DNA from: Erysipelothrix sp. HDW6C
GTDB lineage: Bacteria; Bacillota_I; Bacilli_A; Erysipelotrichales; Erysipelotrichaceae
NCBI RefSeq assembly: GCF_011299615.1
Contig: NZ_CP049861.1
Span: forward strand, 2,046,001 to 2,110,000
DNA length: 64,000 nt
Direction: 5' to 3'
A model generated the notes under the pieces. That model made no database searches, was not told where the DNA came from, and saw only the letters and a list, made by a program, of their open reading frames with translations. Both the position numbers and the translations under genes were made by a program. This document shows positions 9,894-17,091 of this stretch, one piece after another (within the stretch, counting starts at the first letter, position 1; each line of letters begins with the position of its first letter).

Positions 9894-11486
9894 TTATATT
9901 CCATTTACCCCCTTATTATCAAGCTTCCATAACAGTATTTGAACCAAATGTCGAACATATATGCTCTTTTTCCATTTTAAATTTGCGCGAGCATATGTGT
10001 TCCTAGATACAGCATTAGGATGGTAATCTGGATACTGATTTCTCTTAAATCTTCTATAGATGTATTTTTCGCGATTTAGCACTTCAGTTGTCTTCTGGTC
10101 CATCGTAAATTGGTTTAATGTCTTAAAAAATAGCCCAATTGTCTCAGGTTTGCAAATTATATTTAAACTATAATTGTCTGCTCTTAATTCAGCCATTTGC
10201 GCCCAGTAATTGGGTGATGAAATTGTTGGACCGATAGAAAATAATATCAACCAAAGAAATAAAACTATGTATATGAGTGCTGTTACCATTGGTGTATTTT
10301 GTAATTTGCTTAGACCAATTATCGTCATCATCGATGTCACAATTAAAATCAATAGTATTGTAGCTGAAAGTCTACTTTTAACTGGTATCCATTTAGCATC
10401 TCTATACTTCAAATGAGCAATTTCATGACATATAAGCATATTTAGAATGTCATCCATTACTATTTCACCTTCATATTCACGAATCAAACTTAAATGATTC
10501 CAGAGACCTGTGCTGATCGAAATTGTCGAATCTTCAACATTAGCATATGCATTTATTGAATTTAATTTGTAAGTTTTAAACGTTACTTTAGATATTCCAG
10601 CATTTTTACAGTATTCCCTAATTCTTTCTTCAAAAGAGCAATAGTTTAAATCATTGAATTTGATTTCAGCTTCATTACAAACACTTTTAGAAGATTTACG
10701 AATATCAATTATTGGTTTTATTAGATTATAGAGTAAATATACAACTACAAACATAATGGAAAAAATTGGAAAATATTCGCTTTCTATTAACTTGGAAGAA
10801 ATTGCATCCAACCAGTTTTGAAGCAAAAATATAACAATGTATATAAATGGGAGACATACTACTAATACAGCTATTTTAAAAATATCGCTATTTTCTATTC
10901 TTTTTCTTGGTTTAATATTTATATTATTTATTATTATGTCTTCATTTTCATTGAGATAATCAATAATAATATATGATCTTGCAATTACGATTGAAATCCC
11001 TTTTGCATACTCTTTCATCATACTATAGGTTATTTTAGCATTCACAACAGACAAAGCAATGAATAAAATTATCTTGCCCAGAATACTTTCATTTCCTACT
11101 TTGCTAAGAAAAAATGTTGTAATCACTGGTATAATTAATAATTCTAGAATCACTAAAGCTACATAGCCAATTATTTTTTGAAAATATACAAGTTCTACTC
11201 GAATATCTTCTAATTCATCATTTGCACTATAACCGAAGATTATCGAACTAAACACAGTCTTAAAATTATGTTTTGTGTGATGAAATATTCCTTTCACTAG
11301 TTTTGACAAAACTGGATTATACTCAAGCACATGACTTACTTCTTTTTTAATTACGTACCTATACCAATAGCTTATTACAAGATAGCAAATTATTGAAAAT
11401 AATATATAGCTCAATAACACTGTTAGCCCAACCTTCCTAGCGAAATAATGAAGCGCTCCTATTAATTTCCTTTTACTTAACCTCAA
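9894..11486 (-). CDS. Membrane-embedded M48-type zinc metalloprotease
   Basis: About 530 residues. Several membrane segments (near 20-42, 105-130, 210-235, 245-265, 375-395, 400-425) surround a catalytic HEIAH at about 354-358 and ELRAD at about 433, the zinc ligands and second motif of M48 (HtpX/Ste24-like) peptidases; HPNAVSR near 490 also fits. HtpX-type enzymes degrade damaged membrane proteins. The start is uncertain: TTG at 11486 lacks a clear ribosome site, while GTG at 11420 has AGGAAGG upstream. Ile/Asn/Lys-rich codon use differs from flanking genes. It lies on the same strand as the nuclease/methylase pair, 421 bases downstream; a joint role is speculative. Confidence 0.75.
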   Translation of the reverse strand: MRLSKRKLIGALHYFARKVGLTVLLSYILFSIICYLVISYWYRYVIKKEVSHVLEYNPVLSKLVKGIFHHTKHNFKTVFSSIIFGYSANDELEDIRVELVYFQKIIGYVALVILELLIIPVITTFFLSKVGNESILGKIILFIALSVVNAKITYSMMKEYAKGISIVIARSYIIIDYLNENEDIIINNINIKPRKRIENSDIFKIAVLVVCLPFIYIVIFLLQNWLDAISSKLIESEYFPIFSIMFVVVYLLYNLIKPIIDIRKSSKSVCNEAEIKFNDLNYCSFEERIREYCKNAGISKVTFKTYKLNSINAYANVEDSTISISTGLWNHLSLIREYEGEIVMDDILNMLICHEIAHLKYRDAKWIPVKSRLSATILLILIVTSMMTIIGLSKLQNTPMVTALIYIVLFLWLILFSIGPTISSPNYWAQMAELRADNYSLNIICKPETIGLFFKTLNQFTMDQKTTEVLNREKYIYRRFKRNQYPDYHPNAVSRNTYARANLKWKKSIYVRHLVQILLWKLDNKGVNGI

Positions 11487-11907: not shown

Positions 11908-12549
11908 TCATATAATAGTTGAGAAGTCATACAATATATAATTCAGTTTAAGTTTTTGTTTATCTAAGTAACGGATGGCATTTAAGTAATTATCTTTGTT
12001 CTTAATCTGAATTTGCTTGCTTTCAATGCCCTCTAATTTTTGAATTTCAATTATTTCGTTATAAATTGATCCAAGGTTGCGACTTTGACTAACCACAAAC
12101 CCAAGTACTGTGCTTTGGTGGTAGTATGACGAGTATTTACCATTTGTAAACCGATTTATACCTTCTTTTACAAATTCTTTATTCAATTGTTTTTTTCCAT
12201 CTAGTCTTTTACATTCAATAATATAATAGGCGTCATTCTTACTGAAATCTCGCTTTAGTTTGACCCTAATATCTGCTCTCCCTTTGTAATCCATAATTTC
12301 GCTATCATAGTTTTCTTGGGTCTCAGGCTCAAAACGGTAATCTTTCATTTTGTGTTTTCGTCTGTGGTCTTCATGGTCTAGAAAATCTTCTAGAAGAACA
12401 TTTCTTATTTTGTTTTCGTTGTTAGGAATAAGCAATCCGTTACGAATATACTCTGTAGAAAGAGACTCACATGATGTAATAACATAACTTGTAACTCTCG
12501 AAGTAAACGCTTTGGTTACGCTGTTTATAAGTTTAATATTAAGATTCAT
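11908..12549 (-). CDS. PD-(D/E)XK nuclease-like protein of an R-M-type module
   Basis: 213 residues from the ATG at 12549, chosen because GTGGAG lies 11 bases upstream; it overlaps the methylase end by 11 bases. The core has the PD-(D/E)XK pattern: an N-terminal helix with Glu (VLLEDFL, about 54), GRADI with D93, then YYIIECKRL giving E112-x-K114. Such proteins cut DNA, and position next to an adenine methylase suggests the restriction partner. No DNA-recognition domain is obvious, so specificity may come from the methylase. Same AT-rich codon use as the methylase. The nuclease fold is inferred from motif spacing only. Confidence 0.6.
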   Translation of the reverse strand: MNLNIKLINSVTKAFTSRVTSYVITSCESLSTEYIRNGLLIPNNENKIRNVLLEDFLDHEDHRRKHKMKDYRFEPETQENYDSEIMDYKGRADIRVKLKRDFSKNDAYYIIECKRLDGKKQLNKEFVKEGINRFTNGKYSSYYHQSTVLGFVVSQSRNLGSIYNEIIEIQKLEGIESKQIQIKNKDNYLNAIRYLDKQKLKLNYILYDFSTII

Positions 12550-15445
12550 ATGTCTGATTCTCCACAAGTATCGCTTCAATCACTTCGTTACAGTCCCTAA
12601 TAGCTTGCGACAAATGCCAATTTTTTGAATAGTTTTTCTTTATTATGTATATACTATTATCCTTGTACTCAATTATATTCTTCGTTTGGTAAAATACATC
12701 GTTTATTTTACTATTGCTTATAATATCAACAAGTTGTTTGTCAATATTTATAAATTTATTTCGGGTATCTATATTGAAATCAATTACAAAAATATTATAT
12801 TTATCATTTATGTGGTCTGCCATATAGGTGTTTATAGGGACATCACTTCCCAGAATTTCAACCCAAGTACTTTGAAACATATCATTATACCTTGAATTTT
12901 CCTGATCAGATGATTTTGAGTTAGATGTCAGTTTCCCGGATGCTCTTGGTATTTGATATTCTAAAATGTATTCAACAAATGGATTTTTATACAAACCGAA
13001 CATCATTAGAACTTTGTCATTAAAGTCTTTTAAATCCTTTTGTTTGTCATTATAATTTAAACCATCTTTGAAATCCAAGGTCAGTTGGTCTACTAGCTTT
13101 ACAAGTTCAACATCAAATAGATACGGGAGTTGTTTCAACTCATTTAGAAAGGCTTGTTCTCTCTCAACGCCCGTAGATGATCCAGTTAGAAAATTTAAAT
13201 AAGCATATAAGGAAGAATTGAGAAGACCAGTAATATTTTTTAAAATGTCTTTTTGGTCTTCCGTTCCTTTGATACAGTTAATACTGTCTCGATAAACATA
13301 ACTTTCTTCACTATAAGCCGCACGACGCGTAAAATCTGAAGTTAACCCTTTCTTGAAAAGAACATAAGGTGGAACAAACAGTTCTGGATCTCTAGGTCTG
13401 TGTATAAATTCAGACTCAAACAATGTAAAATTGGAGCCATCAAGATAAAAATGATCAATTGCGTTCTTTGAAATTAATAACTTTTTCCCAATTAAATGAG
13501 AAGATGGATTTGGATCCCCCCCTGTAGTTTGAATTCCATTTTTAATTTGCAGTTTTTCCTCTTTCGCCAATAATTCAATTGTTTTATATTTACTCAATAA
13601 ATCACCCACTATTTCAAAATCCCAATAGCTACCATACACCATGGTCTTCCAAGCCCAATCATTTACAAGTAAATCTTTTTGCCTAATATATTTAACATCA
13701 TCAGGTTCGATCAGGATTAAGTTATAGTAGTTCAACAATTTATTTGGTTTAATCGATATATATAATATTTTATTGTTAATTGGATCAATATCGGTAGTTT
13801 TATTAGTAAAAGTAAAAATTGTCGCTGGTGCTACAGCATCCTTAAAAATCTGTTTTCTAACAGACGACAGTTCCACTACTTTATCAATTGTTGTTTCTTC
13901 TAAAAAAATCTCCCTGATTTTTTTAGAAGATTTGCGATCCTTGTATAGAATCTTAGATGGGATGATGAGACTACAAACACCTGTCTTAAGTATATTTTTA
14001 AGCCTTATCATAAATGAAACACATATCTCCTTATCAGGAACGTCGAAGCCAGTTTCTGTTTTGAAATAGTTCAAATATTTGGTTTGGGCTGCAACCTTGC
14101 CCCATGGTGGGTTCCCAAGTACAAAATCAAATTTATTTTTTTCAAATAATTTATCTATTGCTTCATCAAAAAAATCTGAGGTTATTAAATTACTTCCCTT
14201 AACGTTAGGAAATTTGAATCCATCTAGTTTTTTGGGGTTCTTAAAATCAAATAATGTCACATAAATCGAAAAAATGGTAACATCAATGGCTTCATCATTG
14301 CAGTCGATACCATAAATATTTTCAGTGACCAAATCATTTAACAAGATGTTATCAGAAATATAACCATCGCTTTCGGCATTTTTTTCAAGAATAAGTCTCA
14401 GTGACTTAACCAAGAAAATTCCAGAACCACAGGATGGGTCAATTATTTTTGATGTTTTGTTTGAGTACAGATGTTTTTTTACTGTATCGGCTAACATAAA
14501 GTCCACTAGATACTCAGGAGTATAGAATGCCTTGTCCTTTTTTTGCTTCTCACTACCAAGCACCACTTCATATACATTACTAATCAATTCAATTGGAATA
14601 ATATTAAAATCATAAAACTGGAACAAACTATACTGTCCATCACGCATTCGTACACTTGCTGAAAAAAACTCTTGGATTTTTGACAATACCATTTTTTCAA
14701 TTTGATGAATCTCTTCTTCTTGAGAAATGTCAAAAAGACTACCATTAAATTTGTTTTTCAGGTATTCAAATAAATCATACAATATCTCTCTATTACCAAT
14801 AATTTTTATGAAATTATCTCTGGAAGTCACTGTGTTTGATGTTAATCCTTCATAACCAATATCAATTCCTCTGTCAATCAAATATCTTATAAACAGCAAT
14901 CTTAGAACTATCTTATTTGCATAATCTAAATGAAATTCATCTCTCAGTACTTTAATTAAATAACGAAGATTATCCAGTAGATAGTCATTCATAGGTTTTT
15001 TTGTTAACTGTGTGTCATATTTTTCTAGAAAAACTTCATTTGTTATATTCCAATACGTTAACTCATTTGTAAGATAATCTTCGTTTTGCTGACCATCTTT
15101 TCTAATCCTATCAATCTCATTTAGAACCACTCCCGATTGATTTATAGATATACTTCTTGAAGAATATATCGCGATGTGATCACCATTATCTGACAAAATA
15201 AATGGTATTTGTGAGTTCCACAATTTGTTATCAATATTGTCATCTGTCTTTTTATTTATTAGATCATCAAAAAAAATCACAAGCGGTTCATTATTGGCAA
15301 TATATACAGCCATAGGATTTAGAATTTCAAGAACTCTTTTATTATGAATTGACAACTTTGATGATGAAATTTGTCGTTTATAAAGGATATTCTCGGACTC
15401 AGTATATCCTAAGTATCTCAGGATATCCTCAAAGTTGTTAATCAT
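12539..15445 (-). CDS. N6-adenine DNA methyltransferase, Eco57I-like
   Basis: 968 residues, ATG at 15445 with AGGAGG. The AdoMet motif DPSCGSG is at 336-342 and the catalytic NPPW at 445-448, both intact; FYTP (307-310) is the usual lead-in of this gamma-class family. Residues 1-300 are helical and lack a nuclease motif I can see; 600-830 probably form the target-recognition domain; the last 120 residues are unassigned. Type IIG enzymes fuse nuclease and methylase; here the nuclease-like part is a separate overlapping gene. Probably modifies adenine in a specific site to protect host DNA. First gene of the pair, with the insertion sequence starting 250 bases upstream. Confidence 0.85.
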   Translation of the reverse strand: MINNFEDILRYLGYTESENILYKRQISSSKLSIHNKRVLEILNPMAVYIANNEPLVIFFDDLINKKTDDNIDNKLWNSQIPFILSDNGDHIAIYSSRSISINQSGVVLNEIDRIRKDGQQNEDYLTNELTYWNITNEVFLEKYDTQLTKKPMNDYLLDNLRYLIKVLRDEFHLDYANKIVLRLLFIRYLIDRGIDIGYEGLTSNTVTSRDNFIKIIGNREILYDLFEYLKNKFNGSLFDISQEEEIHQIEKMVLSKIQEFFSASVRMRDGQYSLFQFYDFNIIPIELISNVYEVVLGSEKQKKDKAFYTPEYLVDFMLADTVKKHLYSNKTSKIIDPSCGSGIFLVKSLRLILEKNAESDGYISDNILLNDLVTENIYGIDCNDEAIDVTIFSIYVTLFDFKNPKKLDGFKFPNVKGSNLITSDFFDEAIDKLFEKNKFDFVLGNPPWGKVAAQTKYLNYFKTETGFDVPDKEICVSFMIRLKNILKTGVCSLIIPSKILYKDRKSSKKIREIFLEETTIDKVVELSSVRKQIFKDAVAPATIFTFTNKTTDIDPINNKILYISIKPNKLLNYYNLILIEPDDVKYIRQKDLLVNDWAWKTMVYGSYWDFEIVGDLLSKYKTIELLAKEEKLQIKNGIQTTGGDPNPSSHLIGKKLLISKNAIDHFYLDGSNFTLFESEFIHRPRDPELFVPPYVLFKKGLTSDFTRRAAYSEESYVYRDSINCIKGTEDQKDILKNITGLLNSSLYAYLNFLTGSSTGVEREQAFLNELKQLPYLFDVELVKLVDQLTLDFKDGLNYNDKQKDLKDFNDKVLMMFGLYKNPFVEYILEYQIPRASGKLTSNSKSSDQENSRYNDMFQSTWVEILGSDVPINTYMADHINDKYNIFVIDFNIDTRNKFINIDKQLVDIISNSKINDVFYQTKNIIEYKDNSIYIIKKNYSKNWHLSQAIRDCNEVIEAILVENQTYES

Positions 15446-15827: not shown

Positions 15828-17091
15828 ATGTCCATCTCTAATTCTATACGTATTACACTCAACATTAAAGATCCAAATGTAATTTTCTCAAATAATTGTG
15901 TTTCTGAATTACCTATCAATGGTGTTCTTTCGCTTGTTTATGATGCCAAACTATCACCGCCTACTCCTGAACACTGTCAAAACTGCGGTGTTATAAACTT
16001 CAACTTCGATATCACCAAGAACGGATCTAAAAATAGTGCTTATCAAACTCCCATGTGTATCGAACCGAAAAACTATTTTACGTCTTAAGAAACAACGCTA
16101 TCTCTGCAAGCATTGCAACATAACATTCTGTGCTCAAACTGAGTTGACCGAGTTTAGACACACTATTTCTAAGAACACTTATTACGCTGCGATACTCGGT
16201 GCCAAAAACAAAATACCCATAAAGGACATTGCGAAAAGGCACGATATATCTCACGGCACCCTTAATCAGTGGATTCATCAACTTGATGATCAGTTTATCG
16301 TTAACTACAACTATCTACCAGAACACCTGTCTTTTGATGAGTTTACATCGGTAAAGTCTGTCCATCATAAAATGTCTTTTATCTACATGGATGCTACGAG
16401 CGGGAGAATCCTTGATATCGTCCAGGACAGACGTTTGAGCTTCTTAAAGAGCTATTTCTATCGTTATCCTAGCGATATTAGAGCTCATGTTAAGACAATC
16501 AGCATCGACATGAATGAACCTTACATCCAATTCATTCACTCGTGCTTTCCCAATGCTCAAATCATCGCAGACCGATTCCATATTGTTCAACACATCAACC
16601 ATGCTCTCAACTCCATACGCATTCAAATAATGAAAGATAATCCTAAGTACCATACACGTTTGGAACATTCTTGGGTGTTGATTCTAACTGCACATACTAA
16701 ACTAGATACAGAGAATTATCGTAAATTCATTGGCTATAACTATTTGATGACCGAGACTCGGGTCATTGATGATCTACTCAGACTATCCGCAGAGTTCGAG
16801 AACACCTATTGGCTCTGTCAGCAATTAAAACAGGCAGTTAAGCATCGTAATGCTGCACAATTCTCAAAACTACTCCATCAAGAGCATACTGCAATTTCTA
16901 GTCAAATTAAAACAGCATTGCGAACCTTCACGAAGCAAGAAAAGCACTTAACAAATGCTTTAAATTACCCTTACTCGAACGGAAAACTCGAAGGAACAAA
17001 TAATCTAATCAAGGTCATCAAGAGAACGGCATTTGGTTATCGCGACTTCTTTAATTTTGAGCTCGAATTGTACTTATTTCAAACACAATGA
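15828..17091 (+). pseudogene. ISL3-family transposase, frameshifted
   Basis: The first frame (15828-16088) has the N-terminal zinc finger start (CQNCGV) and reaches NGSK; the second (ending 17091) continues with CVSNRKTILRLKKQRY, CKHC, the helix-turn-helix IKDIAKRHDISHGTLNQWI, the DDE core (SIDM, then IADRFH with conserved D, then NGKLEGTNNLIK with catalytic E) and GYRDFFNF. Removing one A from the five-base run at 16029-16033 joins them into about 421 residues, normal for ISL3 transposases. The frameshift could inactivate the element or, less likely, be translationally bypassed; no classical slippery heptamer is visible. Confidence 0.85.

Follow-up and report, generated by a model that had tools for sequence, protein, structure and literature searches.

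The window, by which we mean the whole 64,000-nucleotide stretch analysed here, encodes an adjacent methylase and nuclease that probably form a two-subunit restriction–modification system, type IIG-like in function, in which one target-recognition domain (TRD) would direct both the predicted methylation and the predicted cutting. Judged by its sequence conservation, the methylase–nuclease module is real, widespread, commonplace within its own methylase family and poorly catalogued; conservation of the pair across phyla excludes a chance association. Both genes lie on the reverse strand and show the following features:

12539–15445, reverse strand: methylase gene, 968 aa, predicted N6-adenine enzyme of Eco57I type with a C-terminal TRD (M/S subunit)
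15056–15445, reverse strand: N-terminal alpha/beta domain, residues about 1–130, without a conserved ExK
14600–14998, reverse strand: helical connector, residues about 150–282, from the secondary structure of the model
13646–14599, reverse strand: methyltransferase catalytic domain, residues about 283–600, from the CamA alignment and Pfam
14420–14440, reverse strand: AdoMet-binding motif I, DPSCGSG, residues 336–342
14102–14113, reverse strand: catalytic motif IV, NPPW, gamma-class N6-adenine type, residues 445–448
12992–13645, reverse strand: TRD, residues about 601–818, a cassette exchanged among relatives
12539–12991, reverse strand: C-terminal domain, residues about 819–968, kept across the family
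12539–12549, reverse strand: 11 bp shared by the end of the methylase gene and the start of the nuclease gene
11908–12549, reverse strand: gene for the PD-(D/E)XK nuclease subunit, 213 aa, predicted BamHI-like fold
12415–12417, reverse strand: nuclease E45 in the first core helix, invariant in 69 sequences
12271–12273, reverse strand: predicted catalytic D93 of the nuclease, motif II, invariant in 69 sequences
12208–12216, reverse strand: predicted catalytic E112-C-K114 of the nuclease, motif III, with E, C and K invariant in 69 sequences

Both open reading frames agree with the preliminary description, which had reported an Eco57I-like methylase overlapping a 213-residue protein. The overlap suggests translational coupling. 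By sequence inspection, a Shine–Dalgarno-like GGAGG lies upstream of the methylase start; the ATG of the nuclease is located 11 bp inside the methylase gene and is preceded at ~10 bases by a GGAG within the methylase end. In relatives, the ends of the two genes typically overlap by 4–60 bases.

The methylase matched two Pfam families above cut-off (N6_Mtase, 4e-21; Eco57I, 7.5e-21), and carries AdoMet motif I and an NPPY/F/W motif within a methylase fold, placing it among the Eco57I/N6_Mtase adenine methylases. In motif I, the residues D, P, C, G, S and G are invariant in 69 of 69 family members and position 338 is A or S. Motif IV takes the form NPP(W/Y), with N, P and P present in all 69 sequences and W in 65. 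The predicted structure (pLDDT 87) most closely resembles CamA of Clostridioides difficile (Z 27.6, 21% identity, residues 283–818), followed by MmeI (25.4), DrdV (22.6) and BpuSI (19.4). CamA, an orphan adenine methylase, is the nearest solved structure to the methylase–TRD part, but comprises only about 577 aa and lacks the N- and C-terminal extensions. The type IIG/IIL enzymes MmeI, DrdV and BpuSI share the connector–methylase–TRD architecture; they differ from the pair, in which the nuclease forms a separate chain and no ExK is conserved in the N-terminal domain. Structures of type I HsdM and BrxX align to the methylase from about residue 151 onwards. Within the C-terminal domain, K936 and D951 are invariant in the family alignment, and W943, H944 and A946 nearly so. 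A tract of seven G residues on the coding strand (13516–13522), near the start of the TRD, is a possible slippage site. We rejected phase variation through this tract, as the window holds two tracts of this kind, no more than chance would give, and relatives have none at this place.

The N-terminal domain of the methylase is conserved without the signature of an active nuclease. F58 and W76 are each invariant in 50 of 50 sequences, whereas the family alignment contains neither a conserved ExK nor a conserved Lys following D/E, in keeping with the earlier view that the methylase has no visible nuclease domain. Pfam and PDB profile searches gave no meaningful match for this domain. Its order of strands and helices is compatible with the remnant of a nuclease core, with the invariant F58 where an acidic residue would be expected, and many relatives show a 'PDA..D.KP.ILFF' pattern in the same domain. 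On the basis of this order and pattern, the domain is possibly a decayed nuclease domain. The methylase ORFs of three relatives (L067, L074 and L092) measure 1,237–1,276 aa, more than 200 aa above the others, and may include an extra N-terminal part or a start called too early.

For the small protein, structure prediction yielded a model with a pLDDT of 94 and a core consisting of helix 45–57, strands 71–82, 87–98 (with D93) and 108–116 (with E112 and K114), helix 120–135 and strand 145–152. All 69 sequences retain E45, D93, E112, C113, K114 and Y139 without exception. The top solved fold is BamHI (149 residues aligned over 8–212, r.m.s.d. 4.0 Å), at a Z score of 7.7 that lies within the range reachable by unrelated folds, values below 8 being weak by themselves. 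McrC follows (Z 6.3), and then Can2, PspGI, BstEII and Ecl18kI; this ranking was obtained with VIA-align, and plain Foldseek returned no significant match for the same model. BamHI acts independently as a homodimeric type IIP enzyme, and McrC functions together with the GTPase McrB; although they are the nearest solved folds, neither shows detectable sequence similarity to the nuclease. Taking fold prediction, conserved motif and identity of the fold matches together, we consider the predicted PD-(D/E)XK nuclease fold of the 213-residue protein firm, because predicted structure and family conservation combine. The preliminary assignment to this superfamily thus stands.

Catalogues hold little of this nuclease. 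A single-sequence Pfam search reached 22.2 bits for PF08011 (PDDEXK_9), below the cut-off of 25.5; no Pfam or NCBIfam family scored above cut-off, no PADLOC family matched, and relatives gave only isolated weak matches in PADLOC and NCBIfam. The single sequence found no match in the PDB, and a profile search against the PDB found nothing meaningful. Likewise, no PHROG, phage record or viral contig was matched. Near the C terminus, residue 204 is Y in the window protein and H in 97% of relatives.

To assess how widely the pair occurs, we scanned 84,980 species genomes for methylase relatives, obtaining at least 551, and counted linkage on the best 80 loci. By nuclease HMM, the nuclease lies directly downstream of the methylase in 76 of these best 80 loci, a count that includes L024 and L090. 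Three of the other four loci stop at a contig end, and the fourth (L093) has a truncated methylase ORF. Pairing in other genomes is thus confirmed, and the earlier impression of an uncommon layout does not hold: among the best 80 of at least 551 loci, a separate adjacent nuclease is the rule for this methylase family. Judged by record titles, these 80 loci cover about a dozen phyla, with Bacillota, Bacteroidota, Planctomycetota, Kiritimatiellota, Campylobacterota, Pseudomonadota, Aminicenantes, Parcubacteria, Gastranaerophilales and others represented, and more distant versions with unchanged gene order are found on alphaproteobacterial plasmids; in L021, the gene downstream of the methylase retains the D and ExK, with an HMM score below threshold. 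Occurrence is sporadic: a strict search of 395 genomes from one class found relatives in 5, and the nuclease was present in 2 of 296 genomes of the window's own class. In a relative of the same order (G257; L014 and L015), the methylase frame is broken near residue 660, through either decay or sequencing error, and an intact nuclease lies on a separate contig; the system is therefore not always kept intact. Most of the 80 loci show no recurrent third gene next to the pair, and the few recurrent flank families each occur in at most 10.

Exchange of the TRD beside a constant nuclease points indirectly to a single specificity for both proteins. Loci L040 and L046 share 94.8% DNA identity over 1,792 bp of their front part and 91.2% over 1,164 bp of their end, which includes the nuclease gene. 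The intervening TRD-encoding part has been replaced (38% protein identity), and the two nucleases are identical at 215 of 228 residues (94%). A like pattern is seen for L061/L096 and L061/L062, with identities of 0.87–0.90 in the catalytic domain, 0.32–0.42 in the TRD and 0.65–0.74 in the nuclease; L072/L087 present the converse, with 68% identity in the TRD and 41% in the nuclease. Over 53 close pairs, nuclease identity correlated with that of the N-terminal domain (rho 0.65), catalytic domain (0.64) and connector (0.62), and showed no correlation with that of the TRD (rho 0.20, p 0.16), locus pairs being mutually non-independent and the p-values indicative only. Over all pairs there is a weak residual association between nuclease and TRD (partial rho 0.28). 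The cassette exchanges appear to be stronger evidence for a single specificity than the correlations. After a TRD exchange, a nuclease that recognised its site independently would presumably kill the cell, so the nuclease most likely depends on the methylase for its specificity, in the manner of type IIG enzymes.

An ordinary type II system, in which the methylase and a stand-alone BamHI-like endonuclease would each find a common site unaided, with nothing but an operon linking them, is an improbable reading of the pair. Genes that encode M and R separately are the classical arrangement of type IIP/IIS, and the nuclease equals BamHI, its top structural match, in small size. Against this reading, the TRD swap beside a 94% identical nuclease in L040 and L046 would leave host sites unprotected and cut. 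Nuclease identity does not track TRD identity in close pairs, and the nuclease family is recognisable across many phyla; independent endonucleases usually diverge along with specificity. Nucleases with a BamHI fold are capable of recognising DNA unaided, which counts against the single-TRD model. The earlier suggestion that the nuclease lacks a recognition domain of its own thus gains indirect support from the TRD exchanges and none from size, because BamHI, equally small, reads DNA by itself.

A conditional nuclease, for example an abortive-infection effector restrained by the methylase or a modification-dependent enzyme, seems quite unlikely. McrC and the CRISPR-ancillary Can2/Cdn1 are among the proteins closest in fold, but nearly all loci link the nuclease to an active-looking, TRD-bearing methylase; this linkage and the exchange of TRD cassettes are both typical of restriction systems, and the flanks of the 80 loci contain no recurrent sensor gene. 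It is very improbable that the two genes are only part of something larger (a translocase-dependent type IIG-like system, a BREX-like one or one tied to type III Mod/Res) without which they could not restrict. In favour of this are the nesting of the pair between type III mod and res in five loci (L044, L052, L064, L082 and L091) and the use of translocases by related type IIG-like systems in the accessible text of PMC4752239; against it, most of the 80 loci have no other recurrent gene next to the pair, and no helicase gene borders it within the window.

In the five nested loci, mod lies upstream and res downstream of the pair with overlapping or closely abutting ends, forming an apparent four-gene operon, mod–methylase–nuclease–res. 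PADLOC confirmed mod and res of L044. Two further loci probably have a similar nesting, one with mod cut by the contig end (L085) and one with only res visible (L099). The four genes may work as one composite system, or the pair may simply sit as a cassette within the type III operon.

Under the favoured single-TRD reading, the methylase would bind a specific, probably asymmetric DNA site via its C-terminal TRD and modify an adenine, probably on one strand, thereby marking self DNA. The small nuclease would dock on the methylase; the docking surface may be formed by the N-terminal domain and helical connector, as hinted by the correlation of nuclease identity with that of both. When the methylase finds an unmodified site, the docked nuclease would be licensed to cut nearby, and phage defence would be the outcome. 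With one TRD serving two activities, specificity could be changed in a single step by TRD exchange, leaving the nuclease unchanged. As to origin, recruitment of a second nuclease appears to fit better than the splitting of a type IIG fusion, as had been proposed, because the methylase keeps an N-terminal domain at the place of the fused nuclease and the nuclease gene lies downstream; splitting is accordingly doubtful.

Strict type IIG enzymes combine nuclease and methylase in a single chain, and in principle share one recognition domain between methylation and cutting (PMC4081073). In the window and its relatives, the two are separate genes. In 2016, Blow et al. reported 76 type IIG-like systems, of which several carry the endonuclease as a polypeptide of its own (PMC4752239). 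A methylase–TRD protein without PD-ExK next to a separately encoded endonuclease, as found here, fits the definition of this type in the accessible text (PMC4752239). According to the same text, AchA6III fuses a PLD endonuclease with a translocase, OspHL35III has a translocase and a GIY-YIG nuclease, with several hundred members in REBASE, and another form combines HNH with two translocases (PMC4752239). Compared by their description in that text only, AchA6III and OspHL35III resemble the pair in having a methylase–TRD protein without an N-terminal PD-ExK and an endonuclease on another polypeptide, and may also resemble it in their single recognition domain, as TRD exchange indirectly suggests for the pair; they differ from its small PD-(D/E)XK nuclease and lack of a translocase. 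No helicase lies beside the pair in the window, in contrast to the translocases of OspHL35III, AchA6III and MexAMORF1192P, and across the 80 loci the only recurrent one is type III Res, at a few of them. BREX is a poor match as well: NCBIfam PglX models reached 44 of 400 bits, and PglZ/BrxC-type genes do not recur with the pair. The proposed split type IIG of Haloferax volcanii, HVO_A0006/HVO_A0237, also has separate PD-(D/E)XK and methylase parts, but its nuclease represents a fragment of a type IIG N terminus and is located 231 genes from the methylase in one lineage (PMC4389544); in the present pair, the nuclease gene is adjacent and its conservation spans phyla.

A separated type IIG, as had been suggested, thus has a published precedent in the 2016 systems; the lone, translocase-free PD-(D/E)XK form is not among the examples in the accessible text of that report, and it may stand in REBASE (PMC4752239). 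A literature search, with REBASE and supplementary tables outside its range, found no description of the exact two-gene form. Tentatively, and with more doubt than confidence, the pair might represent a distinct and widespread type II subtype, with an N-terminal nuclease decayed into a docking platform, a recruited BamHI-fold cutter, evolution by TRD cassettes and, in some lineages, four-gene type III composites (mod–methylase–nuclease–res).

Current annotation would miss the cutter. Two PADLOC models named 'REase_MTase_IIG' (PDLC03603 and PDLC03623) match methylase relatives over their full length and the window protein over residues 8–794, so that these methylases carry a type IIG label, and no model covers the nuclease. 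Methylases without a nuclease motif are thereby catalogued as complete type IIG enzymes, while the actual cutting enzyme would be a protein of ~220 aa that is encoded next door and lacks annotation. Once the pair is recognised, annotation could be corrected in many genomes and a new nuclease family added. The pair would also offer a two-gene system in which exchange of one domain alters specificity and the nuclease is kept, and it allows a direct test of nuclease licensing by a methylase at unmodified sites with no motor protein present.

Within the window, the pair has a GC content of 0.31, compared with 0.39 for the whole 64 kb, and no methylase relative was found in twelve other genomes of the genus. 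The source strain's genome itself gave one match above cut-off to this type of N6 methylase. Together with its low-GC neighbourhood, the pair looks like an acquired island. Just downstream lies a gene for an M48-like peptidase (9894–11486; 530 aa, membrane, GC 0.29), which does not recur beside relatives of the pair in the flanks of the 80 loci. On the other side is an ISL3-type transposase (16036–17091). This ISL3-family gene is apparently split by a frameshift, with a zinc-ribbon start in one ORF (15828–16088) and the DDE part in the other (16036–17091).
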